Source: Cenarchaeum symbiosum A (GTDB lineage: Archaea > Thermoproteota > Nitrososphaeria > Nitrososphaerales > Nitrosopumilaceae). From it: a DNA stretch of 64,000 nucleotides. Below, piece by piece: positions 21,801-43,110 of the stretch. Within the stretch, counting starts at the first letter, position 1; each line of letters starts with the position of its first letter. The translations under genes were made by a program, and so were the position numbers. The notes beneath the pieces are model-generated. The model did no database searches. It was given only the letters and a program-made list of their open reading frames with translations, and was not told where the DNA came from. The stretch is from assembly GCA_000200715.1 (NCBI GenBank), contig DP000238.1:804154-868153 (forward strand), given 5' to 3'.

Positions 21801-24800
21801 ATATGCAGAGACTGTCATGCGCGCGGTATCCATAACGGCAACAGACGCGCCCCGGGTAGACGAGCCCGAGTTTGTGCCCCTGCCGGATATGTCCAACGGC
21901 ACGGATGCGGCGGGCTTTGGAGAGCCCGTCTTTCTTGCGGTATCTCTTGGCGTGACGGATTCCCCGGGGCTGCGCGAGCTGGACATGCAGGATTCCGGCT
22001 CCGGGACGCCGCGTATGCGCTCTGCAGAGTTCAGGGCGGGGGCGCTCACAATGGAGTTTGACGGCAGGATAAACGCATCGTCTATACAGCCTGATAGGAT
22101 ACACGTCCGGAACGGCCACTCGGCCTCTGGCGGCATACCGTTCTCTTCTGTAAGGGAGGCGGGCCCCCGCACGGCCGTCCTGACAATGGATGCGGCCCCT
22201 GCTCTCGAGGCCCACGGGTATGCGGAACCCATACTCTACCTTGATGCGGGCGCGCTGCAAGGAGAGAACGGCTCGCCCATTCCGCGGCCGTTTGAGCTGC
22301 CGCTGCCAAAGCACATAGAATCATACCCGCTCGTCTCCATAGAGGACAACGTCCGGGGGATGGCATTTGCGCCCGACGGGACCAGGGCGTTTACGTCGGG
22401 CGGCTCGGGCAGGCTTGTCCAGTTCGAGCTGGATCCGCCGTTCTCGCTGGATGCAATACCCGGTTCTGCAAGGTCGTCTGTCATGCCGCCGCCTGCGGCA
22501 GGGCCCGGCGGCGAGACCACCGGCCTGTACGCCCGGGAGAATGACCTTGTCGGGCTGTCGTTTGATACAGGCGGCACAATGCTCTATCTGATGGGCGGCG
22601 ACACGGATACGGTCCGGCAGTACTCGCTGGACAGCCCGTACGATATACGGGGCGGCATTTCATTTGAGGGCCTGTTCTATATCGGCGGCGAGGCGCCAGT
22701 CCCCGGGGGGCTCGAGATGGGCCCCGGCGGGGCAAACATGTACGTTGCCGCTGAAACTGACGCGTCGGTATACAGGTATGCGCTAGCCGAGGCGTTCAAC
22801 GTATCCACCGCGGTCTACACGGGCGATTCGCTGTCTGTTCTGTCCAATGAGACAAGGCCTACCGGCGTGAGGATATCCCACGACGGCCGCAGCCTGTTTG
22901 TAGCCGGGGAGATAGCCCAGAGGGGGCCCGATTCTGTGTTCCGGTATGATCTGTTCCCCCCATTTGATATAACATCGGCTGCATACGCGGGCCGCCTGCC
23001 CAGCGTGGCCGAGGCCACCATGCAGGATCTTGCATTTGCGGACGGCGGCATGCGCCTGTACATTGCAGGGCACCTGACGCGCTCGATACACCACTATGAG
23101 CTTGCCGCCCCGTACGAGCTGGGGCAGCCCGTATCTGCCGTCTTGGATGTAAGATCCGACCAGGGCGTCCCCGAGGGGTCGGCCTTCTCCGGCGACGGGC
23201 GGCATGTATTCGTAATAGGGAGGGCGGGGCCCGACGGGATGATCCACAGGTATCCTCTGGATATTCCATACGACCTGGCATCTGCTGGCGCCTCCGACCG
23301 GCTATTCGAGGCGGCCCCGCGCGAGACCAAGCCGCGGGATATCGAGTTCTCGTCCGACGGCATGATAATGTTTACGATAGGGCACAGCGACAATATAGTA
23401 CGGTTCAACCTCGGCGCCCCATACGACATAGGGCCCGGCACCCCGCCGGTCTTTGGGGGAAGCAGCCCGGTCACATTCGGGGGGAATGCTATAGACATAT
23501 CCGCCCAGATTGCGACGGGGCTGGAGTTTTCCCCGGACGGCACTAGCATGTACGTGACGGCAGACAACCTGATCCTGCAGTATGCGCTGGACACCCCGTA
23601 TGATCCGTCGTCTGCATCCTCCGAAGAATCGTTTGATTTGAGGCTGCGGCCGCTCCCCGACGGGGAATACACGGAACAGCAGCCTGCGGATGTGGCCTTT
23701 TCGCCCGACGGGACCAGGATGTTCGTCTCGGGGAACCGCATAAACGCCGTGCACACATACGCATTGGGGGAGCCGTTTGACGCCACGACCGCCGTCCACG
23801 ACGGGCTGTTCAACCTGGTGGACTTTGATGACGACCCGCGCGGAATAGAGTTCTCTGCCGACGGGCTGTACATGGTAATCACCAATGACAACGCGGGCGG
23901 TGGCAGCGCCAACAATGCACTCGTCCAGTATGCAGTGGGCTCGCGCCCCCTGGAGGCGTCGCAGTGGATTCCGGATTCAGACGCGCCGGGGGCGGCAGAA
24001 ACCGCCGCCCTGCGCTCGTCAGCCCGTGCGGCGGGAGCCCCTGCGCTCGGCGAGGCTGTATCCCTGGGCGTCTCGATTAGCACAGGGGACGCGCCCGCGG
24101 TTGTCGGCATCCCCGGCGTATCTGGCATGCTGATACCTGCCGATGCCCCAGTGCATGCAGATTCTGTCCGCCTGGGCGTCTCGGTCATGCCGGCAGACCG
24201 GCCGGAGGCAGCCGATGCGACAAACATGATACATCTTATGATCTCGTCGGGTGCAGCCGATGTGCCGGGGCATGCGGATGGCGTATCCCTGGGCCTCTCA
24301 TTATCCACAGGGGATGCGCCGGGAATAGCAGAAGATCCGGGAATGCTGATCCGCGGAACGGCAGGTGATGCAATTGATCTGCCGGGGCATTCTGATAGCG
24401 CATCACTGGGCATTTCATTAAACACAGATGATGCGCCGGGAATAGCAGAAGATCCGGGAATGCTGATCCGCGGAACGGCAGGTGATGCAATAGATGCGCC
24501 GGGGCATGCAGACGGGGCATCCCTGGGGCTTGCCCGTGATGTAATAGACGCGCCCGCGGTAAACGACACGTATGCGGTGGGCGGCGGCCCGGCGCAGGGC
24601 CGCGCAATACCTGTAGATGGAACAGACGCGCCGACCGTCGGTGATGTGCCCATGATCATCGTACCGGCGCAGGTCCGCGTGATACCCGTGGATGCGTCGG
24701 ATACGCCGCTGACATCTGATGGGGTCCGCCGGGGGATCTCCATTGCGACAATGGATGTACCGGCAGTAAGCGACGTCCACGAGATACCCGCAGATATAAT

Positions 24801-26496
24801 CCCGCGTGTCGGGGAAGACGGCCCGGCACTCTCAGACGGGGCATCCCTGGGGCTTGCCCGCAGCATAACCGACGCGCCGGCAGTAAACGATACGTATGTT
24901 CTAGGCGGCGGCCCGGCGCAGGGCAGAGCAATACCCGTGGATGGAACAGACGCGCCAACAGTCAATGATATGCCCATGATCATAGGCCCGGCGCAGGGCA
25001 GAGCAATACCCGTGGATGGAACAGACGAGCCAGCTGTCGATGATATGCCCGTGATCGTCGTCCCGGCGCAGGGCAGAGTAATACCCGTGGATGCGTCGGA
25101 TACTCCGATGGCATCTGACGAGGCCATCAGGGGGATCTCCGTTATAGTAATGGATGTACCGGCAGTAAGCGACGTCTACGTGCCCGCAGGCACAATCTCC
25201 CGGGACGGGAAAGACAGCCTGGCGCTTTCAGACGGGGCAGTACTGGGACTCGCACGTACTGCAACCGACGCTCCTGTGATCAATGATACGTATGCAGTGG
25301 GCGGCGGCCCGGTACAGGGCCGCATAATACCCGTGGATATAACAGACGCGCCAACTGTAAATGATATTCCCACGACCGGCGGCATAGTGCAGGGCCGCAT
25401 AATACCCGTGGATGCGTCGGACATGCCGCTGCCATCTGATGGCGCCCCCCTGGGGCTCTCCAGAACAGCAGGCGACGCGCCCATAATATCCGAGAGGGTA
25501 GATGGCATAGACTCTGCGCGCAGGGCCCACGATATGGTGTATCCAGGTGACAAAGTCACACTGGGCTACTCTATCCACGGGACAGACGAGCCCAGAATCG
25601 CGGACCGCGAAGGGGATGTCATCAGGGCGGTCTCAGGGCCGGATGTAGGCGATACGGCACAAGCAGACCATACGCGCGCCCAGGCCCCCGTCGCGCCCCC
25701 GCCACCGAGGCCTAGATCCGGCGGAGGGGGCGGCGGCTCGTCGGGCACGGGCGGCACGTCCAATGCCGGCAGCTTTGGATATGACGCATCGTTTGGCTTT
25801 AGCTCAAACGGGGTTAGCGCCAGCTTGGGCACATCCTCGCTGAGCCTCTCGCCTGGTGCGCCGCTGGTAATAACGCCGGTGCTGACCCCCGGCGGCACCC
25901 TTAGCGTCTACGACATGGAGCTGCTCTTTACCGGCGCGGCAGGCAAGGTCTCGGAAGTGTACTATAACAGGGTGGGCGCCTTCTTTGACAGGGAGTGCTC
26001 CGGCGAGGCCGAGCAGTCCGACATGGTATACTCGTGCGATGAATCGTCTGTATTCACGGGGCCCGTCTCACTGGGATTAGCGGGCGGCCTGTTAGAAAGC
26101 ATCACCGTTCCGATAGATCACGAGTTTACGGGAACGCTCAGCATGAGGCTCCGCGACAGCCAGGGGATAACGCTTGCGACACACGACCTTGACAGGTACC
26201 GCATAGTGCAGGTAGATACACCGTCCGAGATGCCGGTGCAGCCGGCCGCAGAGCCTGCAGGGCCCGCAGAGCCCGCGGTGCCCGAGCCCCCGGAGGCGCG
26301 CGCGCCAGAGCCGGCATCTCCCGCGGAGGATCCCGGCCCGGAGCCGCCAGCCCCGCAAGGCGTTGCCCCCGGTGAAGATACACAGGATGCAAATGCACAA
26401 GACGCTGTCCCCGGCGGGGATATCCGGGATGCCGCCCCAGAACAGGGCATCATCGATGTGATAATCGGCTTCTTTAGGTCGATTCTCGGGCTCTAG
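15814..26496 (+). CDS. Giant secreted surface protein G1: 15-10-5-10 propeller blades, DxP stalk, anchor
   Basis: 3560 residues from the ATG at 15814 (a TTG at 15805 would add three). Signal peptide 1-36 (two Arg, hydrophobic FLLVLSLAAA, cleavage near AEA). Four modules follow, each a ~100-residue beta-sandwich-like domain (starting ~15922, 18511, 20467 and 22000; pattern h-S-A-x-L-D...F-D...h-R-D-G, SWM/cadherin-like) plus a run of ~47-residue blades with G-h-A-F-S-x-D-G-x-x-M-F-V and Y-x-L-x-x-P-Y-D-I. I count 15, 10, 5 and 10 blades. The third run ends in a C-x8-G-x-C knuckle (21508-21543). From ~23980 to 25650 lies a stalk of D-x-P repeats, then a Gly-rich linker, the shared C-x12-C domain, a Pro/Ala/Glu-rich spacer and the tail IIDVIIGFFRSILGL. 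Likely a cell-surface adhesin; ligand unknown. Confidence 0.88.
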   Translation: MILSDQAKGRLRAGLRAAGPLFLLVLSLAAAPHAEALPGILSATLDSDGVLLTIVFDDTVDASDIDPSKIHVRDGGALSGGATFAGGLLSSAEPDTVRLAVPHNARAIVAGYASPTLHFDAGALEKGGEAFPPVFAFPRDDAAPFFALAEATPQGLAFSPDGTLMFAVGSTQDTVFRYALDPPHDVASAVLSGSYSVRSEENNPRGLAFSPDGTRMFVAGGTDFVYQYSLGEPFGFDPAPAFDGSIDVSASDTEVSGLDFGDGGLRMYISGYQRGSIYQYDLAEPYEIAGAVSAGSYDVGAEDGRPRGVVVSEDGRTMLILGQSTTSVYRYYLGEAFDVEAAMLVESMPVAESENSPRGLAASGDGRTVFVTGAIDDRVYAHELGDPYDLSGSLHIPGGNTGVPGESSPNGVVFAPDGTVMLVVGSGRDLVYRYELPHPYDTGGAALDSVSRTRPAARSPEGIAFSNNGSVMLILDRGTSSIYGYNLAEPYSPANETHTSAFSVAAHEATPTGIGLASDGSSVFVTGSDSDSVHRFGLGGNLDLESAVHLSSFDASPYVTGPTGVAISADGHKLFISERVTDRVHRFEMADPYEIAAAVYVDSLDASAQDDVLLDITFAADGSALFAVGGRNDMVYAYALGSAYDITPSAKVISVASSVTSGLALSENGAIMAQAGGSTIGGSALGTPYAIHTAIPSNIVAPPGEDNLSGVAFSDDGRFMYVVGRDLLTVYRYTMNPPFDISTATLNSQSLPLPGGVNPAADAPTGLDISDDGRYLYVSDDNGNIYRFDLGGPYRLNSGTFSSALYVGGNITAPHGVYVAPGGNIMIVADRDDGSIHRYEMATPYVPGGATDRGSFDISGTDGAPVGVGFAGGQHMYVAGNDTGKVYQYLADTHPIQAAGTGPRLLSAVLDNGTLRATFDGMIDAGSIQAGMITIRDGHGSNTGIPLLLPEGAADSEVVTFVVPEEYRAEAASYGDPSLHVPATALSGIGGGSFVPDFTGGSLLSPLYRHEREFQSEGITSTERSDRYSLTVIPDGSQMYVGGADGNITWYDLGTPYDITTGVRAGSDILPPYRSAGRNVVPSITGIAFSDDGTQLFAANRGARIAMYQMDSPYEIESASITGTLLTGFQSGIAFSDDGMRIFAALFTENAVRQYDLDSPYEISSGVDAGQYDLDIPPYPGILFLPTSGVHFSPDGAMMFVGEWISDTEDANANRDVHVNKWHRYALSTPFDVLTAERVDTYEYNTGPAGDLEDFSLSQDGRRAYTLTGERVSSSEHIITLAQYRLPEPFDVTPPYLVPSFNVSQGGNLADPYGMAFSPDGTRLLVSGHGETNTKLFHLDPPFDITSGIFQGHSRFYPEGLASETIPSGVALSADGSRIFLSDRDRGAVSQYTLDAPFDVEFNSEIRIDVQLDVSAQDALPGGLAFTPDGTGLFMVGGQGGSVHMYSLNTPFDLGGAAHEISFAVQDRASDPLGIAFDRDGTEMLIADTGGFVHRYILDAPYDISAPAYNGLFDAGGGIRDVAVGGGSMFILGETDRIYRHSPGTYPVVSALDGPVLASAAIDARVAAAEALFDRAVDLGGIDPGGIRITDGAAAGGVEISGSAISGGRDPGVVRFELSDVDNATVSGYAEPRMIFERYAVPGLSGGSFPSQTGNSTELEAVIPLPGSETSLTGAAFSADGMMAFAAGSSTGRVFAYSLGGAFDVSSAVRAGSAPLGAAPGISGLAFSSDGRSMLVADETGGIRRYLAGSPYGIGDVELVESVSLSPRSEDLAGIAFSHDGMTMLAADGSGSVHRYLLQSPYSISEAEYSESAIVGGSPSGIEFSSDGLRMVVPDSGSETAQVYSLAAPYTIDGAEQILPLMLGPGAEGAALSADGTRMLVPGSGVSQYSLSSRNLQVCTDVLELDEGECDEGIRVSEGAGTGEAASLAISISVLEGPLLSESAPYTRDVSVSGRDAPLLDRTLALGFGLMTTDAPVILGLGRAAGSIPGVIEAPGYAETVMRAVSITATDAPRVDEPEFVPLPDMSNGTDAAGFGEPVFLAVSLGVTDSPGLRELDMQDSGSGTPRMRSAEFRAGALTMEFDGRINASSIQPDRIHVRNGHSASGGIPFSSVREAGPRTAVLTMDAAPALEAHGYAEPILYLDAGALQGENGSPIPRPFELPLPKHIESYPLVSIEDNVRGMAFAPDGTRAFTSGGSGRLVQFELDPPFSLDAIPGSARSSVMPPPAAGPGGETTGLYARENDLVGLSFDTGGTMLYLMGGDTDTVRQYSLDSPYDIRGGISFEGLFYIGGEAPVPGGLEMGPGGANMYVAAETDASVYRYALAEAFNVSTAVYTGDSLSVLSNETRPTGVRISHDGRSLFVAGEIAQRGPDSVFRYDLFPPFDITSAAYAGRLPSVAEATMQDLAFADGGMRLYIAGHLTRSIHHYELAAPYELGQPVSAVLDVRSDQGVPEGSAFSGDGRHVFVIGRAGPDGMIHRYPLDIPYDLASAGASDRLFEAAPRETKPRDIEFSSDGMIMFTIGHSDNIVRFNLGAPYDIGPGTPPVFGGSSPVTFGGNAIDISAQIATGLEFSPDGTSMYVTADNLILQYALDTPYDPSSASSEESFDLRLRPLPDGEYTEQQPADVAFSPDGTRMFVSGNRINAVHTYALGEPFDATTAVHDGLFNLVDFDDDPRGIEFSADGLYMVITNDNAGGGSANNALVQYAVGSRPLEASQWIPDSDAPGAAETAALRSSARAAGAPALGEAVSLGVSISTGDAPAVVGIPGVSGMLIPADAPVHADSVRLGVSVMPADRPEAADATNMIHLMISSGAADVPGHADGVSLGLSLSTGDAPGIAEDPGMLIRGTAGDAIDLPGHSDSASLGISLNTDDAPGIAEDPGMLIRGTAGDAIDAPGHADGASLGLARDVIDAPAVNDTYAVGGGPAQGRAIPVDGTDAPTVGDVPMIIVPAQVRVIPVDASDTPLTSDGVRRGISIATMDVPAVSDVHEIPADIIPRVGEDGPALSDGASLGLARSITDAPAVNDTYVLGGGPAQGRAIPVDGTDAPTVNDMPMIIGPAQGRAIPVDGTDEPAVDDMPVIVVPAQGRVIPVDASDTPMASDEAIRGISVIVMDVPAVSDVYVPAGTISRDGKDSLALSDGAVLGLARTATDAPVINDTYAVGGGPVQGRIIPVDITDAPTVNDIPTTGGIVQGRIIPVDASDMPLPSDGAPLGLSRTAGDAPIISERVDGIDSARRAHDMVYPGDKVTLGYSIHGTDEPRIADREGDVIRAVSGPDVGDTAQADHTRAQAPVAPPPPRPRSGGGGGGSSGTGGTSNAGSFGYDASFGFSSNGVSASLGTSSLSLSPGAPLVITPVLTPGGTLSVYDMELLFTGAAGKVSEVYYNRVGAFFDRECSGEAEQSDMVYSCDESSVFTGPVSLGLAGGLLESITVPIDHEFTGTLSMRLRDSQGITLATHDLDRYRIVQVDTPSEMPVQPAAEPAGPAEPAVPEPPEARAPEPASPAEDPGPEPPAPQGVAPGEDTQDANAQDAVPGGDIRDAAPEQGIIDVIIGFFRSILGL
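24313..24545 (+). repeat. 117-bp tandem repeat in the G1 stalk
   Basis: A 39-codon unit beginning GATGCGCCGGGAATAGCAGA recurs at 24313 and 24430 with near identity at the DNA level, including silent positions. Each unit holds two D-x-P half-units. It is the first part of a longer repetitive stalk. Confidence 0.75.
24529..25480 (+). repeat. Higher-order repeats in the G1 stalk, with a 75-bp subunit
   Basis: Three large units begin with L-A-R codons at 24529, 24853 and 25249. They contain a 25-residue subunit R-x-I-P-V-D-x-x-D-x-P...; copies of it start at 24925, 25000 and 25075, exactly 75 bases apart. The second large unit has gained extra subunits, so it is longer than the first (396 against 324 bases), a sign of recombination between repeats. 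Confidence 0.75.
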
Positions 26497-33900: not shown

Positions 33901-35533
33901 TGTCAACACCTTGGAGGCCACCATAGACGAGTCGTTTGACTGGCCACTCAACAGGACAGACTACACTGACAATGTCAAGTTGGAAATCGATGGGAATCCA
34001 GCCGATACCACCTCGGCCGATCGGGTGGCGGTAAACAACGTAATCATAGACACCAGCAGAGTCCTCACACAAAATAGCGAGATCATAGTCCGGTTTGTAG
34101 ATGTGGAAGATTCCGAGGATGTTTTGTACAGCGGAGAATACACGCTTGATGATTCCGACAAGGCCCTGCTTGCCGGGCGGTCGATAAACATAACGGATGC
34201 GGACAACCTGCTTGTAATACACCGGGATACGCCGCGCAACCTTGTGATCAACGACACTACGGCTGTGAACGTGCCGCTCATACTGCACCTTGTAAACGAG
34301 ACGAGTGACGGGACAGCAGAGTTGTTCTCTAATACCACCATCAGGGGCGACGGCATCACCGTAACACTGCCACAAAACCTCATCCTGTCGGGTTTTGATA
34401 ATCTGACACAGATAATCATACAAAAGGATAACAGTACGGCGATACCCAGCCTGCAGATCGCCTCCATTGAAAGCTCTTTCGAGGTGGGCCGGCCGGACGC
34501 AGACCTCGGCCTGAGCAGCCCCGCACGGATTGCCCTGCATGATCAGGCTGGAAAGACAGGATACCGCATAGGCTTGTCCAGCGGGCCCATGACAATAAGT
34601 GATACCTGTGAAGACGACGTCATGCCGGTGGTGTCCGACGTCTGCTCGCTGGATGTCAGGGATGACCTTGTAATATGGACGAATGACCTCTCCATATTCG
34701 GCGCGGGAAATAGCCCCGGGCCAGGCACCGGTCCCGGGCCTATTACGTCGACCCAGCCGTCGCGCGGCGGCGGTGGCGGCGGAGGAGGCGGTGGCGGAGG
34801 CTCCCTCCTCAGCGGCACGGGCCTCGGGTATGACGCCTCGTTTGGCTTTGCCTCGGAAGGGGCAGACGCGCTGCGCGGCTCATCCATACGCCTCCAGCCT
34901 GGCGGCACGCTGGTCATACAGCCCCAGCTCACACCCGCTGGACTCTTGACCGTATTTGACATGGAAATATACCTGACAGGGGCGGGCGGCGAGAGTGCCA
35001 GCGTATACTATAACAGGCTGGGCGCCTTCTTTGGAAAACAGTGCTTTGGCGAGACAGCAGAATCCGAGATGACAAAGACCTGCGATGAATCATCGATAAT
35101 ATCAGGGGCGGCAACACCCGTGCTAGTCGGGGGATCCCTCGAGAGCATCTCCATACCCCTGGAGGGCGAGTTTGCAGGGACAGTAAGCATGATGCTACGC
35201 GACAACCAGGGGATAACGCTTGCGACACACGACCGCGACAGGTTCAGCCTGAATACAGGAGGGGCCGCCGCGCCGGATGCGGGTGTTCCGGATGCCGTGG
35301 AGCCGGGTGTGACACCCCCGGCGGCAGGTTCTATTGATGAGCCCCGCGCAGAGCCCGCCGAGGACAGGGAGCCGCGGGACGAGCCGGCGGCAGGGACAGC
35401 AGACGAGCCCAGCCAGGACAGGGAAGCCCCGGAGGAGCAGGATTCAGAGCCTGCGGCAGAGATAGCAGAGGATTCCGAGAGGAGCTTCTTTGACGCGATA
35501 GGCGACTTTTTCAGGTCGCTCTTTGGCCTCTGA
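27950..35533 (+). CDS. Giant secreted surface protein G2: 15-10-5 propeller blades, anchor
   Basis: 2527 residues. Signal peptide 1-28 (cleavage AHA-QQ). Three modules: SWM/cadherin-like domains start near 28034, 30697 and 32665, followed by runs in which I count 15, 10 and 5 blades of the same pattern as G1. The order of blade variants matches G1 and G3 (for example blade 4 of the first run has PRGVHVSTDGRTML). Instead of a D-x-P stalk, ~1000 bases (33720-34720) encode an extra region rich in Asn/Asp and beta strands, with the string RILATGVNTLEAT shared with G3. Then come an eleven-Gly linker (near 34770-34803), the C-x12-C domain, a Pro/Glu/Ala spacer and the tail FFDAIGDFFRSLFGL. Surface adhesin or ligand-binding role inferred. 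Confidence 0.88.
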   Translation: MIGPALKGAAMLAVFAAVLVAFAPQAHAQQLLSATFDDNGILELTFDEVVEMATFDPRGFTLSDGSGIFTIQLNPGKLITDADSDVIQFRPNDGDRRLAPTYTELRLHIAPDAISPGNPPTAAFTLPDSQYPHTLVTSTFETVNEESPQGLAFSPDGLVMLVAGNEGDSIRRYNLSSPYDVASAVETEEFDISAQEGAVTGVDFAPDGGRIYVVGSRNDIAQYTLDVPYSFDPAPQFETRSNTLVLRSVLDSGAEETQYTGIHYAPAISRLYLAGDSRNAIFQYAVANIFDVRSITHSGTLEVVDSSPRGVHVSTDGRTMLVLGQGNDMIYKYRLSEPYEVTSASLVAQLDVSDQDTNPRGFAASEDGRFVFMAGTNSDTVHRYDLGNPYDFGFGPTGEAAEIGSGGEPVVPGYNLTEDAAPTGITFSYDGTQMFVTGEENDAVYRYALDTPFNVSGAVYTDNFTVSADPQDVHFSHLGTTMIIVNSAGTVSEYALNQAYAITTATLTTAESLDQSSSPTGVAFSHGGYTIFAVGNASDSVHAYELFGDAYDLTGFITQSVGNIDVSGQETDPTGMAFSDDGLRVFVTGRDSDSIHRYDLKSPFVLSGDRYVDSVYVGEQDSSPGDIEILPGGSGMVMVGTNSGMIYNYILATPFDVTSSSYAQSLFVRSDTDEPGDIAISPDGRNMFLPDNSDDTIQQYYLGIPNDPTSAVPVDSVNVSADVSTPAGLAFSPNGTLMYVVDETDDTVYEYLMDPAWDVSTAARTANSATLVGAFAANGLAISSDGLHMLVTQSGGTVDHYAMDGPYVLPGTPAIANTLDVTGESSAPTGIAVNTDGTAIVITGSTGDRLDRYVLGTAYDLSTAVHNDTLSLAGLDNIPDGVAYSADGMKLFYVGSASDTVFAFNLDRSHSVVAAPPAPGILSAVLDGADLTLEFDKEISPSTVMPENIHVRDGSRAEGGGITLSSASVSGSTITATLPNAGDVVRYTDPVAYFDAPALSGVGGGSFPDLEDTSGSAALAQRLLDGRGALSVGFAGSYSVSNETTLPSGVYFRESGLQMFAIDQPNDNLVAYNLSVPYDVTSATFNANVSVRGTSPDPRYTGVEFNPDGSSFYLVDMTGGSGSSGAVRQFVMSEPFDITTATEASFRLVLSIPSPRNTGQPEGLEFSPNGASLFIVEGFRDQVVRYDLGTPYDLSTAVLNSTVRISSYTPTPFDVTFSPDGLSMFTIDLGGSIVRKFALPTPYEITGAEQVDSTFVGSQASNPHDVSFSADGFRMFIADNLGDKIVQYDLLRPYDLTWPGQPGRLGVNTPFHVENNPTGADFSSDGSAVFVVGKGLDQILLCALSVPYDVTTGACRIEHANVDGDPTGISFSPDGRRVFVSNATNIYQYTMDNAFAMTDSGLDLDISQKVTLDITQVPNSEGIPFTIGTAEGLALSSDGRTLFVLGTIPITAIQQYILPSPFDLRGAVFRGYSVQHSLSEADPSGIAFSPDGMRLYIADRLTGQIITYTLASPYHLSPFAERTGITDFSAADNSIEDVAVGATGAVYAVGSGRDGLYSYDAQDGRAYPLAITGTPGRLDVLSGTINMTNGVINVTFADMVDGNALNPTGYSIVNASGTEASITRADSIEVNGSSLIFDLSEEARNAVVNFSDPRLQFDEFAIYSSDDRVFPEPFALPSEPAFDGTGTNQSSGDLVFSSDGSVMYTLAENNLYSYQLGTPFDVTSAFDEDEIRRAVATGMAFPPDGDSLFMSNASDGKVSQFFVNDPFDLSGNGLRIGSANPIGSIGLGADAVPTGVTLSADGRKIFVSESRDDRIYGYGLNEPYTLLDGTGDRESFNLTDINPSGVAFSDDGLRMFVSGNDTGVVQRYDLTTPYKLEGASLSDSEPVTPGASEIAFLPGGLRAYVAGPGGINQYSLDTVKLNPPPMMRYISSTDSPMIRTGLDSMIPQVIFRINETDRLEIVTTTVPSSDLSMDLPIVRILATGVNTLEATIDESFDWPLNRTDYTDNVKLEIDGNPADTTSADRVAVNNVIIDTSRVLTQNSEIIVRFVDVEDSEDVLYSGEYTLDDSDKALLAGRSINITDADNLLVIHRDTPRNLVINDTTAVNVPLILHLVNETSDGTAELFSNTTIRGDGITVTLPQNLILSGFDNLTQIIIQKDNSTAIPSLQIASIESSFEVGRPDADLGLSSPARIALHDQAGKTGYRIGLSSGPMTISDTCEDDVMPVVSDVCSLDVRDDLVIWTNDLSIFGAGNSPGPGTGPGPITSTQPSRGGGGGGGGGGGGSLLSGTGLGYDASFGFASEGADALRGSSIRLQPGGTLVIQPQLTPAGLLTVFDMEIYLTGAGGESASVYYNRLGAFFGKQCFGETAESEMTKTCDESSIISGAATPVLVGGSLESISIPLEGEFAGTVSMMLRDNQGITLATHDRDRFSLNTGGAAAPDAGVPDAVEPGVTPPAAGSIDEPRAEPAEDREPRDEPAAGTADEPSQDREAPEEQDSEPAAEIAEDSERSFFDAIGDFFRSLFGL

Positions 35534-35820
35534 TCCCGTGACGGGCTGCCACGGCCTATGTTTTAGAATATGATGCTGCAGGTCCGGAGATTTGCTTATG
35601 TTCTTGAACCTGCACGGACAGGATGCAAAGTTTCGCAGGCATTCCACCTACCCGGCGCCCCCCAGGGCACGACACCTTGGAGGGCCTTGCTTCCGGGCCG
35701 CGGCAGTGTACACCCCGCCCCGGGGCACGGGCCTGCGCGACCCCCTAGTCCTAACTCTTGTCGATCTGGCGCAGAAAAAATAGTATTTAATATACCCCCC
35801 CCCCCCCGCTGTCTAGATAG
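35534..35820. other. Intergenic region G2-G3
   Basis: 287 bases. Nothing gene-like except the G3 promoter at its right end (TATA box and poly-C tract, listed separately). Confidence 0.5.
35783..35807 (+). promoter_or_regulatory. G3 promoter: TATA box followed by a 13-C tract
   Basis: TATTTAATATA (35783-35793) is followed at once by thirteen C residues (35795-35807), and the G3 ATG is at 35821. Transcription should begin ~25 bases after the TATA box, so the tract lies between TATA and the start site. Slippage in the tract would change the spacing between them. Confidence 0.7.
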
Positions 35821-38800
35821 ATGGACTGGATAATGCGTAGATCGTCAGCAGATCGTGCAAGGATCATGCGTGGAACCGCGCTGATCGCCGCGCTATTCAT
35901 GGCCGTTACATTTGCCATGGCGCCCGCCCACGCCCAGCAGCTAGTCTCGGCCACCCTCAGTGATGACGGCATACTGGAGATTATCTTTGACGCGCCGGTA
36001 AACGCATCCTCCCTGACCCACAACCGGATCACCGTCACCGACGGGATGACAATACAGAGCGGCACGCGCATGTCCGGGGGGGATCTTGACACGGATGTCA
36101 CCGGGGACAGGCTGCGCTATATCCTGAATGATAACAGACTCAATACCATATCCGGGTACTCTAATCCCATATTGCGTATTGATCCCAGCGGGCTAGGCCC
36201 GGGCGTGCCGGAAGCATACGGCCTGCCATCCCAGGACTACGCATACCCATACATACTTGACCGGGGCTCGTTTACACCCACCGAGGGATCCCCTCAGGGG
36301 CTTGCAATATCGCCCGATGGAACGCTCTTGTTTGTAGTTGGGTCCCAAAGGGATGAGGTTCTCCGGTACGAGCTGGACCCGCCCTATGACACAACCTCGG
36401 CCAGTCTGAACGGCTCGTACGATATAAGCTCCGAGGAGGGCGGTTCGCGCGGTATTGCATTCTCTGCAGACGGCACCCGGATGTTCATTATCGGCGACAA
36501 TAATCGTGTATACCAGTATTCCTTGAGTACGCCGTTTTCATTTGATGGAACGGTATCGTTTGAGCTCAACTATAACGTCGTCAGCCAGGACAACCAGATG
36601 TCGGGCATTGATTTTGCACTCGAGGGTCGCCGGATGTACCTGGCTGGGGATGGCAGCAACAACATATACCAGTACAACGTGTTCAATCCGTATAATCTCG
36701 ATATTACTGAGCAGTCTTTTTTCGTTAGACATACAGGAACTTTCAGTGTAGGGGACGAGGACGCGGGGCCCCGGGGGGTGTCAGTCGCGGCAGACGGCCG
36801 CAGCATGCTGGTATTGGGGCAGACAAACGACAAAGTATACAGGTACGACATGCACGTCCCGAACGATATAACCACCTCCACGTACGCAGGCTCCTTGGAC
36901 ATATCTGATCAGGGAAACAATGTGCGGGGACTAGCAACCTCAACAGACGGAAGGAACATCTTTGTCTCCAATACGGACGGCTCCGGCTCCGTCCACAGGT
37001 ACGACCTTGGTTCCCCGTATGATATGCCGGAGGGTGTGGGGGCATCCATTCTGAACATTACCGGTGAGAATAACTCCCCCACAGGGGTCGCATTCTCCAA
37101 TGACGGCCTGCGCATGTTCACAGTCGAGGCACAGACAGATATGATACACGAATACACCATGACAAGCCCCTACAATACAGCGTCGGCCACGCTTACTAAA
37201 AGTGCGCCAGCCTTTGTGCTTGCAGACGGGACTCCGGGCTTTACAGGCACCGATGCCTCCCCGTCAGACGTAAGGCCGGTGACTGGAGACGCCCCACAAG
37301 ACATAGAATTCAACTCGCATGGTAGAAAGATGTACATCCTCGGCGCCCAGACCGCGCGCGTATACCAGTATACGCTGACCCCCGACTATAACATAGCAGG
37401 GGCTACACTGGATGACACGTACAACGTATCCCAAGAAAATGGTGGGCCTAGCGCCCAGTTTGGCAGGGAGAGGACGCCTACAGGAATGGAGTTCAACCCC
37501 GGCGGGGACATAATGCTGATCACCGGGCGCGGTTCAAACGACATACACCAGTACAATCTGGACAACCCGTATGATCTAAGCCGGAGGACCACGGCGGACT
37601 CTAATCGCATAAACAACATAGGTACATTCCCGACCGGCCTAGCATACTCGGAGGACGGGCACAGGCTGTTTGTCTCGGAGAGGGACTCTGGAACAGTTCA
37701 GAGGTACGACCTTCCAACACCCTACATGCTCAATGGCGCCCGGTACGTGGACTCGCGGGCCATATTGGACGATGATCCCCAGATACACGATGTGGCATTC
37801 TCCTTCGACGGCAGGAGGATGTTCGCCGTCGGCGCCCAGAACGACAACGTATACACATACAATCTGACGGCCCCGTTTGACATAACCACAACCGGGGAGG
37901 GCCAGCGGCTGCGCTTTTCTGGCGACAACCTTGTCGCCGATGTTTCCTTTGGCGACAGTGGCAGGGAGCTCTTCGTGCTAGAGGCCGAGAGTGAAACCGT
38001 CCTAAGGTACAGTCTGGAAATACCGTACGAGCTGGCCACGGCGATACCGCAGAGCAGCTCCCCCGCCCTGGGCGATGCCTCTCTGCGCGCTCTGGAGTTT
38101 TCACCCAACGGGACACTGATGTTTGTATCCGGATGGGTCAACCTCCGTGTGGACGCATACAGCATGAGCACGCCGTTTGACGTATCCACGGCACAGCTTA
38201 CCGGGGACAGCTTTGATCCAGATGATGCGGCAAACAAGCCCGCTGATGATGTAAACCGGCCCACCGCGCTGAGGTTCTCGTCAGACGGGACGATGCTATT
38301 TGTATTGGACCAGACGGTCAGAAAGCTGTTCCAGTATGAGCTTGATAGTCCGTACTATATAGGGGGCACACCGCGGTTTGAAAGATCACTCAATGTAGTC
38401 AGTCAGCTGAGCGCCCCCCAGGGGTTTGCATTCTCTGCAGACGGCACATCACTGCATATCACAGGTGCCGGCAACGACCGTATATCCCGGTATGCATTGG
38501 GCACCGCGTATGAGCTTTCAACGGCAAGCCCTGTCGGATCGCAAAGCATAGCGGATTTGGAAGATTCCGCATCCGGGCTTGCATTCAACAGAGACGGCTC
38601 GAGGGTATTTGTTTCCGGCAGCGACAGTGAGCTTGCCGACAGCGAGGACAGCGTATACTCGTTTGACCTGACGGATTCTGTGCCCTTGAATACAGCCCCC
38701 GCCGCACCGCGCCTATTGTCGGCAGTCCTGGACGGAAGAGAACTGACCATGATATTTGATGACGACATAGATGTTTCGAGCATACTGCCGAATAGGATAG

Positions 38801-41800
38801 AGATCAGGGAGGGCCAGGACGCAGGCGTCACACTGGCAAGCTTCTCGGTTTCCGGGGGGACGGTCACGTCCGTGCTGTCCCCGGATAATGCAACCATGGT
38901 ATCCGGATATGCAGACCCCGTGGTGCGGTTTGAAGTTGGCGCCCTGGCCGGTGTCTCCGGGGGCATATTCCCCTCTTTTGACGTGGAGAGCCTCTCCCCT
39001 GTTCTGAACAGGTTTGCCATATCAGACGACCCCGACTTGACGTTTGCGGAAAGGCCCGGGCAGCCCATCACCGGGAGCGTGCGCAGTGGGAGCTTTATTA
39101 CAGCCACTGTAGCACCCAGCGGCGCCACATTCTCGGCTGACGGAACAACGATGCTCTTTGTCGGGGACAGTACAGACGGGAGTAAACAGGTGGACGAGTT
39201 GCACGTCTGCACCATGACGTCCCCGTATGACATCACGTCCCTTGACTGCGGAAGAGATGTCGTTGATAACTTGGACATGTCGGAGACGGCGACGACAGGC
39301 GTGACGTTCTCACCAGACGGGCTGAACGTGTTCGTATCCGGCAGGGATGGCAGGACCGCCACAGATCCCGATGGGGCCATATACTCGTACAGGTCGGTCC
39401 ATCCGTTTACCATACAGGAACCCTCCAGCACACCCGAGATCAATCTGGCCGGGAGGTTCACGCTCAACGTCTCCGGCAATGTAAACAATACTGAGGATGT
39501 GGAGTTCTCCACTGACGGCATGAGGATGTTCGTGCTGGGGAACATCGGGGTAAGCTTTGGAGGATTTGAGCTCGCACACGGCATAGTAGAGTACGACCTC
39601 GTCTCACCATACACACTGAACGGGGCCACCACCGCACTCGGACAGTCGATCTCACTCGGATTAATTGACCCGACGGGGATGGCAATTACAAGCGACGGAC
39701 TGCGGATGTACGTTATCGACAGGGGGACGGGCCTGCTGTGGTGGTACGACATGCCGGCGAACAGTATAACCGGCTTTACGACCAGGGGATTCCTTGATGT
39801 CGGGTCGTTAGACACCTCCCTGGAGGATGTCATGTTGCACGGCAACGATGAGGCAATATTCCTGCTTGGCGCCGGCAGGGATACGGTATACGGGTATGGC
39901 TACGGAATCGACGGCCATGCAGACTACGCCCTCGGCATCCGGGACAAGCCGGACCTAGGGGTAGAGTCCGCAACGTTCTTCAACGAGACGGGGACCCTCA
40001 ATGTGCTGTTTACAGATACGGTAGCTGGCGGGTCGGTGGACCCGGCGAGGATCAACGTGGTGAATGTGACGGGCGAGGTGGTGGCCCTGTCGAATGCGGA
40101 GATGCCCACTCTGGCCGGCCGCACGCTCAGCTTTGAGCTTGGAACCTCCAGGAACTTCACCGATCCGGTTCTGGAGTTTGGCGCGTCTGCTGTGCGCGGC
40201 GCCGACGGCGGGACATTCCCGTCAAAGTTCGCATTCCCGGGGGATCCGCTGGTGTACGAGGGGGCGCTAAACGTATCCGCTCAGGTCAGGAAGGCATCGG
40301 GCGTGTCATTCACCCCCGACGGGACAAAGATGTACGTGACGGATACAGGTCCTGGGAGATCCAGGCTAAACCAGTATCTTCTGTCCGACCCTTTCAACGT
40401 ATCGTCCGCCATGTTTGACCATCAACGCAACATGGGCACGGGCTCGGGATCATCTTTCGAGCAGAGCGAGGCGGGGATCCCCTCGGGCTTTGTATTTGCA
40501 CCCGGCGGCACCAGGATGTTTGTCGCCAGCGCCGACAGGGGATGGATCGGCGAGTATTTCTCGTTCAACCCGTATGATGCACGCAGGCTGTCGTACTCTC
40601 GAGGCCTCGATACCAGCCCGCAGGATGCAAATCCGACAGGCGTGACACTCTCCCCCGACGCCAGCATCATGTTTGTCACCGGGAATGAGACCGACTCGGT
40701 ATACAGCTATGGAGTAACCGCACTTAATGCTGAAACTGCCGTCCACATGGAGTCACTGGATGTATCCGCCCAGACTGCCGATCCCACGGGTGTGTCAATC
40801 CCCGGTGACGGCCTTGAGCTGTTTGTTACAGCTGGGGGTACAGGGGATATACACAGGTACTCGCTGGTTAAACCGTACACGCTGGACGGGGCTGCATATG
40901 ACGGCAAGTTTGGGACAGACGAGGATGACCCACAGGGCATGTTCTTTCCCAGAAATGGCGAAGATCTGTACGTTGCGGGGCCCGGCGGGATACACACGTA
41001 CCTTCTTGATACGGTCGGGGTCAGGTTCGTTCCGGCATCCATGTTGGGAACGATGCACGAGATTACCATCTCTGAAGGCATACCGATCGTAGATGGTGCC
41101 ATGAGGGTGCCAGATAGTCCGATGGGGGTGATTCACGATATTACCATCTCTGAAGGGGTATCGATCATGGATATGGGTATGAGTGTGATACAAAATCAGT
41201 CGACATTTACGATAACACGCACCGACAGCCCCATGGTCAGCGACGACAGGATGACATCCATTAACACACCACCCGTTGGCCCAGGCACCCCAATCGGTGC
41301 CTCCGACATGCCCGTCGTATCCGAGACTGCCAGCAGCATATGTTCGCCGGTATGCCCGATTATACTTACAGGAAGTGACGCCCTTGATTGGATAGAGGAT
41401 ACAATTCCAGGGCCGGATACAGAGGTCCTTCCCATAGTGCGCATCCTGGCCACGAGTAACAACACCCTGGAGGCCACCCTGGTGCACAACGCAAGCACCA
41501 CCATGAACTCGTCGTTTAGCTGGAGAGTCGCCGATCACAATGTCGAGTTGGAAATAAACGGGACTTTGGTCAATAGTATGGCTAGGCCGGTGGCGAGAAA
41601 CAACATAGTCATAACCAGCCCCGACGTCAATTTCACGTCGGATAATGAGATCGTGGTCCGGTTTATAGGCGTGACAGATTCCAACGGTATTGTGTATGGT
41701 CTCGAGTACAATCTTACTGGACCCGACAAGGCCCTGATTGGTGATCAACCAGAGGTAATCTTGATACCCAGGGACAACCTGCTTGTAATTCACGAGCATA

Positions 41801-43110
41801 CGCGGAATCCCCTTGTGATCGACGACGCTACGGGAGTTGAACAGCTCATACTGCACTTCAATGAGAGCATCCCCGTTGACGGGACTCCCACAATGGCCCC
41901 GGAGATCGAGATCCGGGGCGACGGCATTACGGTGCTGCTAAGAGAAGGCCTCGGCATATCCGGCTTTGCTGACTTGTCGCAGATAATCGTAGAAGAGACT
42001 AACACAAAAGGCGACATCCCGGACGTCCGCTATGGAAGATCCTTCGAGGTGGGCGATCCGGATGCAGACCTAGAGGTGGAACCTCCCGCAGAGATTACCC
42101 TGATTGGTCAGGGCGGAAGCACTGGATACCGCATAGACTTGGCAGGCATGACCAATGTAATAGTGGCCTGTGAAGGAAACGTGGATGGCGCGTTTCCCTC
42201 AGGAGTCAATGCCTGCTCGCTGGATCGCGGCAACGACCTTGTAATATGGACGCGCGACCTCTCCATACATGGCGGGTACACTGACATCCCCGGGCAGGGC
42301 CCCGGACCGATTGTGACACCCCAGCCACGCGGCGGTGGCGGAGGAGGCGGTGGCGGCGGCTCCGTCCTCAGCGGAACAGGCCTCGGGTACGACGCGAGGT
42401 TTGAGTTTACCGCAGGGGGCGAGGGCGTGCTGAGCGGCTCCTCCATACGCATCCAGCCAGGAAACACGCTGGTAATACAGCCCCTGCTCACACCGGCAGG
42501 ACTCTTGACAGTATTTGACATGGAGGTATACCTGACAGGGGCAGGCGGCGAGAGCGCCAGCGTATACTATAACAGGCTGGGCGCCTTCTTTGGAAAAGAG
42601 TGCCTTGTAGAATCAACACAGTCCGAGATGACAAAGACCTGCGATGAATCATCCATAATATCAGGCGCGGCAACACCCGTGCTAGACGGAGGATCCCTCG
42701 AGAGCATCTCCATACCCCTGGAGGGCGAGTTTGCAGGAACAGTAAGCATAATGCTCCGCGACAACCAGGGGATAACGCTTGCCACGCACGACCGCGACAG
42801 GTTCAGCTTGAATACAGGAGGGGCCGCCGCGCCTGATGCAGGTGTGCCAAGTATAGATGCCGCGGAGCCGGGTGTGATACCCCCGGCGGCAGGGCCCGTT
42901 GATGAGCCCCGCGCAGAGCCCAGGCAGAACAGGGAGGAGCCGCGGGACGAGCCGGCTGCATCAGATACAATGGACGAGGCCGGTCAGGCCAGGGAAATCC
43001 CGGAGGATCAGCAGGGTTCAGAGTCCGCGGCAGAGACAGCAGGGGATTCCGGCGGGAGCTTCCTTGATGCGATAGCCGACTTTTTCAGGTCGCTCTTCGG
43101 TATGAGCTGA
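35821..43110 (+). CDS. Giant secreted surface protein G3: 15-5-5 propeller blades, anchor
   Basis: 2429 residues. Signal peptide 1-38 (Arg-rich start, ALIAALFMAVTFAMAPAHA, cleavage before QQ). Three SWM/cadherin-like domains (starting near 35940, 38705 and 39960) are followed by runs in which I count 15, 5 and 5 blades. It is the closest relative of G2: same signal region, same blade order in the first run, same non-stalk region (41410-42270) with RILATSNNTLEAT, same Gly-rich linker, and a C-terminal domain nearly identical to G2 in DNA. Before that region are two copies of an ITISEG-containing segment (near 41060 and 41138). Tail FLDAIADFFRSLFG plus MS. The promoter carries a poly-C tract. 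Surface role inferred. Confidence 0.88.
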   Translation: MDWIMRRSSADRARIMRGTALIAALFMAVTFAMAPAHAQQLVSATLSDDGILEIIFDAPVNASSLTHNRITVTDGMTIQSGTRMSGGDLDTDVTGDRLRYILNDNRLNTISGYSNPILRIDPSGLGPGVPEAYGLPSQDYAYPYILDRGSFTPTEGSPQGLAISPDGTLLFVVGSQRDEVLRYELDPPYDTTSASLNGSYDISSEEGGSRGIAFSADGTRMFIIGDNNRVYQYSLSTPFSFDGTVSFELNYNVVSQDNQMSGIDFALEGRRMYLAGDGSNNIYQYNVFNPYNLDITEQSFFVRHTGTFSVGDEDAGPRGVSVAADGRSMLVLGQTNDKVYRYDMHVPNDITTSTYAGSLDISDQGNNVRGLATSTDGRNIFVSNTDGSGSVHRYDLGSPYDMPEGVGASILNITGENNSPTGVAFSNDGLRMFTVEAQTDMIHEYTMTSPYNTASATLTKSAPAFVLADGTPGFTGTDASPSDVRPVTGDAPQDIEFNSHGRKMYILGAQTARVYQYTLTPDYNIAGATLDDTYNVSQENGGPSAQFGRERTPTGMEFNPGGDIMLITGRGSNDIHQYNLDNPYDLSRRTTADSNRINNIGTFPTGLAYSEDGHRLFVSERDSGTVQRYDLPTPYMLNGARYVDSRAILDDDPQIHDVAFSFDGRRMFAVGAQNDNVYTYNLTAPFDITTTGEGQRLRFSGDNLVADVSFGDSGRELFVLEAESETVLRYSLEIPYELATAIPQSSSPALGDASLRALEFSPNGTLMFVSGWVNLRVDAYSMSTPFDVSTAQLTGDSFDPDDAANKPADDVNRPTALRFSSDGTMLFVLDQTVRKLFQYELDSPYYIGGTPRFERSLNVVSQLSAPQGFAFSADGTSLHITGAGNDRISRYALGTAYELSTASPVGSQSIADLEDSASGLAFNRDGSRVFVSGSDSELADSEDSVYSFDLTDSVPLNTAPAAPRLLSAVLDGRELTMIFDDDIDVSSILPNRIEIREGQDAGVTLASFSVSGGTVTSVLSPDNATMVSGYADPVVRFEVGALAGVSGGIFPSFDVESLSPVLNRFAISDDPDLTFAERPGQPITGSVRSGSFITATVAPSGATFSADGTTMLFVGDSTDGSKQVDELHVCTMTSPYDITSLDCGRDVVDNLDMSETATTGVTFSPDGLNVFVSGRDGRTATDPDGAIYSYRSVHPFTIQEPSSTPEINLAGRFTLNVSGNVNNTEDVEFSTDGMRMFVLGNIGVSFGGFELAHGIVEYDLVSPYTLNGATTALGQSISLGLIDPTGMAITSDGLRMYVIDRGTGLLWWYDMPANSITGFTTRGFLDVGSLDTSLEDVMLHGNDEAIFLLGAGRDTVYGYGYGIDGHADYALGIRDKPDLGVESATFFNETGTLNVLFTDTVAGGSVDPARINVVNVTGEVVALSNAEMPTLAGRTLSFELGTSRNFTDPVLEFGASAVRGADGGTFPSKFAFPGDPLVYEGALNVSAQVRKASGVSFTPDGTKMYVTDTGPGRSRLNQYLLSDPFNVSSAMFDHQRNMGTGSGSSFEQSEAGIPSGFVFAPGGTRMFVASADRGWIGEYFSFNPYDARRLSYSRGLDTSPQDANPTGVTLSPDASIMFVTGNETDSVYSYGVTALNAETAVHMESLDVSAQTADPTGVSIPGDGLELFVTAGGTGDIHRYSLVKPYTLDGAAYDGKFGTDEDDPQGMFFPRNGEDLYVAGPGGIHTYLLDTVGVRFVPASMLGTMHEITISEGIPIVDGAMRVPDSPMGVIHDITISEGVSIMDMGMSVIQNQSTFTITRTDSPMVSDDRMTSINTPPVGPGTPIGASDMPVVSETASSICSPVCPIILTGSDALDWIEDTIPGPDTEVLPIVRILATSNNTLEATLVHNASTTMNSSFSWRVADHNVELEINGTLVNSMARPVARNNIVITSPDVNFTSDNEIVVRFIGVTDSNGIVYGLEYNLTGPDKALIGDQPEVILIPRDNLLVIHEHTRNPLVIDDATGVEQLILHFNESIPVDGTPTMAPEIEIRGDGITVLLREGLGISGFADLSQIIVEETNTKGDIPDVRYGRSFEVGDPDADLEVEPPAEITLIGQGGSTGYRIDLAGMTNVIVACEGNVDGAFPSGVNACSLDRGNDLVIWTRDLSIHGGYTDIPGQGPGPIVTPQPRGGGGGGGGGGSVLSGTGLGYDARFEFTAGGEGVLSGSSIRIQPGNTLVIQPLLTPAGLLTVFDMEVYLTGAGGESASVYYNRLGAFFGKECLVESTQSEMTKTCDESSIISGAATPVLDGGSLESISIPLEGEFAGTVSIMLRDNQGITLATHDRDRFSLNTGGAAAPDAGVPSIDAAEPGVIPPAAGPVDEPRAEPRQNREEPRDEPAASDTMDEAGQAREIPEDQQGSESAAETAGDSGGSFLDAIADFFRSLFGMS

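Follow-up and report, generated by a model that had tools for sequence, protein, structure and literature searches.

A poly-C tract separating TATA box and start codon of a giant secreted-protein gene of Cenarchaeum symbiosum: a candidate slippage-prone promoter spacer within a wider archaeal tract set

The window analyzed in this study, a stretch of 64,000 nucleotides from the Cenarchaeum symbiosum A genome, encodes the giant secreted protein G3, whose gene is preceded by a pure run of cytosines (Table 1). Re-reading of the coordinates confirmed the sequence-only reading in its description of the site, namely 13 C located between a TATA box and the G3 ATG, with the ATG following 13 nt downstream. 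The encoded protein shows Pfam matches to Lactonase, SGL and NHL/WD40-like families representing beta-propeller repeats, and its signal peptide ends at ...MAPAHA-QQ. The tract, whose length of 13 C originates from one sequence, is a long pure homopolymer in a promoter, as is typical of simple-sequence contingency loci, and it separates a core promoter element from the start, corresponding to the promoter-spacer type represented by opc and porA. The distance from the TATA box to the ATG equals 22 plus the number of C, i.e., 35 at C13 and 29–30 at C7–C8. Three in-frame codons (35821, 35833 and 35866) are candidate starts of G3, and a function of the tract as a ruler between promoter and start codon would fit best with the first of them. 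Four paralogues of G3 were screened for a tract and lack it. Furthermore, a C-terminal motif resembling FxDxIxDFxRSLF, possibly an anchoring signal, is common to giant secreted proteins (positions 35533 and 43110 of the window; 12581 of L023).

Table 1. Features of the G3 locus and of further loci with C/G tracts. Positions refer to the window unless a locus is named.
Feature	Location	Strand	Remarks
TATA-like element TTTAATATA	35786..35794	+	abuts the 5' side of C13; first T at -35 from the ATG
C13 homopolymer, candidate slippage site	35795..35807	+	run of 13 C
13-nt segment between tract and ATG	35808..35820	+	transcription start predicted within the segment or at the ATG, from TATA position statistics
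G3, giant secreted beta-propeller protein	35821..43110	+	2,429 codons/aa; open frame, signal peptide, Pfam
In-frame alternative ATG, M5 of G3	35833..35835	+	
In-frame alternative ATG, M16 of G3	35866..35868	+	compact signal peptide directly after; favoured by coding score
Giant secreted subtilase gene	L013		C17; 1,957 aa
Giant secreted propeller gene	L018		G12, 3 bases before ATG; at least 2,122 aa
Tandem propeller giants	L023: 6801-6811, 12816-12826		G11 each; 1,914 aa and at least 1,722 aa
Signal-peptide gene	L020		G11; 225 aa
In-frame tract	L021		G10, just after signal peptide
Signal-peptide gene	L011		723 aa; tract 125 nt away; weakest of the eight signal-peptide-gene cases
Propeller protein gene	L012		C12 upstream; no clear signal peptide
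Glycosyltransferase frame end	L015		G12; 12 nt before UDP-GlcNAc 2-epimerase
Methyltransferase frame	L016		G12 within frame
Secreted family of G013	L151, L169, L177-L182, L184, L222, L226-L229		

In order to evaluate the tract against its genomic background, C/G runs were counted in the single contig of 2,045,086 bases (2.05 Mb). If bases are drawn independently with the base frequencies found in 400 kb of control stretches, approximately 93, 27, 7.7, 2.2, 0.63 and 0.18 runs of 8, 9, 10, 11, 12 and 13 bases, respectively, are expected per genome. Runs of exactly 8 and of 9 are depleted (10 and one observed), and those of 11–13 are in excess (14 versus approximately 3 expected). In total, 17 runs reach at least 10 bases, comprising two of 10, five of 11, six of 12, three of exactly 13 and, additionally, one of 17. 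Long tracts thus exceed chance expectation in this genome, and the length distribution is two-peaked, with a dip at 8–9 and a second mode at 11–13, unlike a single decaying distribution. The longest A/T runs are 10 bases long, and no other simple repeats were found at the set thresholds in 36 loci.

Positions of the long tracts relative to genes were determined in 36 stretches applying simple scripts of our own for gene calling and signal-peptide scoring, not Prodigal or SignalP. Of the 17 long runs, 12 were located in the interval from -120 to +150 nt around a gene start, as opposed to 46 of 228 control C/G runs of at least 6 bases (Fisher 2.7e-5). Placement is biased towards surface genes: genes with a signal-like N-terminus accounted for 8/17 long runs and 14/228 controls (Fisher 1.7e-5), and a simpler second criterion for secreted genes yielded 7/17 versus 18/269. 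Five tracts lie 3–64 nt upstream of a plausible start of a giant secreted gene, corresponding to Poisson p values of 3.5e-9 to 1.3e-6 if 18 to 60 giants are assumed. The sequence-only reading had found no comparable tract at the other giants; this holds within the window, which contains one run of at least 10 C/G, but not for the genome, where four further giant secreted genes possess such a run. The G3 tract is therefore not unique, being one among 17, and belongs to a genome-wide set at surface-protein and glycan-type genes. In L015, a change in G count alters where the glycosyltransferase frame stops with respect to the start codon of the epimerase. The corresponding region (L015 1-12001 and L016 1-12000) is of glycan type, featuring glycosyltransferases, epimerases and a methyltransferase, with two tracts approximately 11.6 kb apart. 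Six of the 17 tracts are without an obvious surface gene (L009, L010, L014, L017, L022 and L019, the latter at a DUF373 gene).

Tracts were also followed in related genomes, where length differences at homologous tracts were found in a secreted family of G013 and in insertion-sequence (IS) copies of the congener G001. In G013, a member of the same taxonomic family, 14 secreted repeat-protein genes whose 5' ends are covered in this one assembly feature C6–C14 between an upstream ATG/GTG and the signal peptide (C6, three C7, C9, three C10, three C11, C13 and two C14). Six members keep the reading frame, two of these only if GTG is taken as start. In the other eight, the frame of the upstream ATG does not continue into the signal peptide; five of these offer a GTG or another site downstream of the tract at which translation could begin. 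Two pairs differ by one C and in phase: L169 (C11) is out of frame and its paralogue L182 (C10) in frame, with 90% identity over approximately 318 bases, and likewise L184 (C11) is out of frame and L179 (C10) in frame, with 84% identity. Judged by these sequences, the family is by itself a strong candidate for frame switching. On a tract-bearing contig, the adjoining proteasome alpha gene is 73% identical to that of C. symbiosum, which supports the archaeal origin of the G013 contigs. Tracts were located at secreted genes in 7/13 cases versus 4/18 local controls in G013 (p 0.076, the controls including family members) and in 2/8 cases in G010 by the automatic criterion, which missed a further G16 upstream of a secreted frame (L110). 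Little secreted-gene bias was observed in G015 (0/8), G032 (0/4) and G160 (1/9). Scoring covered these five genomes besides C. symbiosum; in addition, tract contexts were read in G028 and G044, and 14 tracts were located in G048. For the congener G001, use as a replicate of the tract set was rejected since many of its tracts are IS ends, and it serves only as a record of slippage. Within G001:C1 1-200000 (L073-L082), an IS-like element of approximately 2.1 kb, which we take to be IS66-like, features poly-C of 8–13 at both ends (e.g., 23513-25644).

The alternative deserving most weight, albeit a rather unlikely one, is a neutral slippage equilibrium, in which C/G runs beyond approximately 9 bases grow to 11–13 without MutSL repair and persist where they are harmless, mostly in intergenic DNA. 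The G3 tract would then be a passenger without a selected role, possibly still variable. The two-peaked run lengths fit this explanation, as do the intergenic location of 14/17 tracts according to our own gene calls and the result for mismatch repair, since a MutS_V profile that was positive in 11/14 controls had no match in this genome. Moreover, G001 IS-like copies with 99–100% identical cores differ in their end tracts (C11/G10, C11/G9 and C13/G9), where homopolymer errors of the assembly are possible. Neutrality does not account for five of 17 tracts lying at giant secreted genes, which represent approximately 1% of genes, nor for the tandem giant paralogues, which kept G11 in homologous 5' flanks of 83% identity (155/187). 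It is also at odds with the homologous secreted genes L020 and L021, whose tracts are nevertheless differently positioned, and with the recurrence of surface-gene tracts in G010 and G013.

How a tract of this kind could act at G3 is suggested by the promoter architecture of the genome. In 159 control upstream regions, the first base of TATA-like hexamers peaks 29–30 nt before the ATG, with a tail to -35. Based on this peak at -30/-29, promoters of this genome are predicted to be mostly leaderless, and the spacing set by the tract should consequently matter. At C13, the G3 TATA box lies in the tail of the distribution, 5–6 nt past the mode, which would be reached at C7–C8. The layout recurs at three other secreted-protein genes, namely L020 (TATA at -29, G11, ATG), a giant homologue of Cenarchaeum sp. 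MEX2-MAG13 (TATA at -33, G11, then 12 nt to the ATG) and a secreted-protein gene of G193 (C13, TATA at -29). Together with the TATA peak, these cases support the earlier proposal that C13 is a slippage-prone promoter spacer. In the other giants of this genome the tract is placed differently; for the tandem giants, the nearest TATA-like element is more than 100 nt upstream, so their tracts would sit in a leader. A family-wide excess of the TATA-tract-ATG pattern was rejected: across 250 family genomes, counts were no higher than in the reversed control (5 versus 9 for C and 12 versus 13 for G). Nine of the 12 G-tract matches represent one orthologous non-promoter locus, 'TTTAATAAAATGAAAAGAGGGGGGGGGG'; these were discarded as promoters, as only 4-codon frames follow where the locus was read, and it lies 5' of an opposite-strand gene that is presumably SufC-like. 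No Rfam match was obtained for this locus (L128-L134, L136 and L137), and the length of its G9–G12 block varies among species.

Archaeal RNA polymerase initiates at a nearly constant distance from the TATA box. The number of C at G3 should therefore determine the length of the leader ahead of the ATG, or even whether the transcript includes this codon. In this proposal, C13 would be a slippage-prone contingency locus of the promoter-ruler type, at which gain or loss of C shifts the 5' end of the RNA relative to the ATG. At approximately C7–C8 the G3 RNA would be exactly leaderless, at the sequenced C13 it would have a leader of roughly 5–6 nt, and shorter tracts than C7–C8 would yield RNA devoid of the ATG. 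Translation of this giant surface protein could thereby vary between cells.

This proposal would lose most of its effect if translation started at M16, since the RNA would then possess a leader of approximately 50 nt and tract changes would move only its 5' end. Such a start appears unlikely. It is favoured by the compact signal peptide counted from M16, by our coding score and by the TATA box 80 nt upstream of this codon; the TATA box, however, is also 35 nt before M1 and thus within the leaderless range, and in the MEX2-MAG13 giant homologue the only clear start follows the tract by 12 nt. A fixed regulatory element is very improbable, i.e., a C/G block acting as binding site or as quadruplex/i-motif that tunes promoter opening and involves no switch. 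The position of the block between TATA box and start would suit this function, and nine genomes from two genera have kept an orthologous G9–G12 block 5' of the SufC-like gene. Against this, the coding-strand base differs between G3 (C13) and L020 or the MEX2-MAG13 giant (G11), the position relative to TATA and ATG varies among loci, and paralogous promoters of G3 are without the block. A cloning or assembly artefact in tract length can practically be dismissed: homopolymers are prone to cloning and sequencing errors, but these could shift a count by one or two and not generate 17 tracts sharing a mode and a biased placement, on which the independent assemblies MEX2-MAG13 and G013 agree.

Based on tract statistics, placement and recurrence, on the missing MutS match and on the differences in tract length and phase among paralogues of G013, the tract set of this genome probably represents archaeal contingency loci, and the odds that the ruler mechanism operates at G3 itself are considered even. 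Combining both assessments, a probability of roughly 0.6 is assigned to the reading that C13 of G3 is a promoter-ruler slippage contingency locus within a wider archaeal set. Weighing against this reading are the single tract length on record for G3, the TATA distance beyond the mode, the possible start at M16, the tract-free paralogues of G3, the counts in the reversed control, the small secreted-gene bias in G015, G032 and G160 and the six tracts away from recognizable surface genes. Related archaea may share a wider habit that includes classical frame-switching tracts. A more far-reaching reading is offered tentatively, at slightly less than even chance: Cenarchaeum-related ammonia-oxidizing archaea would exhibit true phase variation of surface proteins by three kinds of poly-C/G tracts, namely rulers between TATA box and ATG that shift the RNA 5' end past a leaderless start codon, leader tracts, and tracts that switch the frame where signal peptides begin. 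Bacteria would lack an equivalent of the ruler, as it relies on leaderless promoters of the archaeal type. The results suggest that archaea may switch surface proteins on and off by slippage, as some bacteria do. If the tracts switch, a sponge symbiont would have evolved a means of varying giant surface proteins in its host, which could be of benefit there, and leaderless transcription would permit a distinct switch design.

Phase variation by slippage is a textbook case of bacterial genetics. In the opc promoter of Neisseria meningitidis, a poly-C of about a dozen reportedly sets expression by its length, as Sarkari is said to have described in 1994. G3 resembles it in having a poly-C of approximately this length in its promoter and in encoding a surface protein; opc, however, has a bacterial sigma-70 promoter, whereas at G3 the run lies between a TATA box and a start codon that is probably leaderless. 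The porA promoter of N. meningitidis, by accounts attributed to van der Ende in 1995, features a spacer between -10 and -35. Here too a homopolymer serves as promoter spacer, yet it separates two polymerase contacts, whereas the G3 tract would set the distance between the starts of transcription and translation. Neisseria, Haemophilus and Campylobacter are known for frame-switching contingency loci (see PMC5084427). Such loci are matched by the G013 family, L016 and L021; the hosts differ in being archaeal, and 6/14 members of the G013 family, in one assembly, are in frame. A survey of coding genes from 99 prokaryotes, including 18 archaea, showed a bias of homopolymeric tracts to 5' ends (PMC2831843), but it concerned short poly-A/T, and its accessible text neither names Cenarchaeum nor presents an intergenic analysis. 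In Helicobacter pylori, a G-repeat of variable length in the tlpB leader is read by a small RNA (PMC8295292). It resembles L018 and L023 as a variable G-run 5' of a surface-related gene, and differs in this RNA, none such being known here. A 2025 review (PMC11868660) names archaea once, as a future extension only, and a literature search outside subscription papers brought up no account of phase variation by slippage for either Cenarchaeum or Nitrosopumilus. Slippage phase variation as such is known from bacteria; new here would be its archaeal setting and the proposed leaderless ruler.
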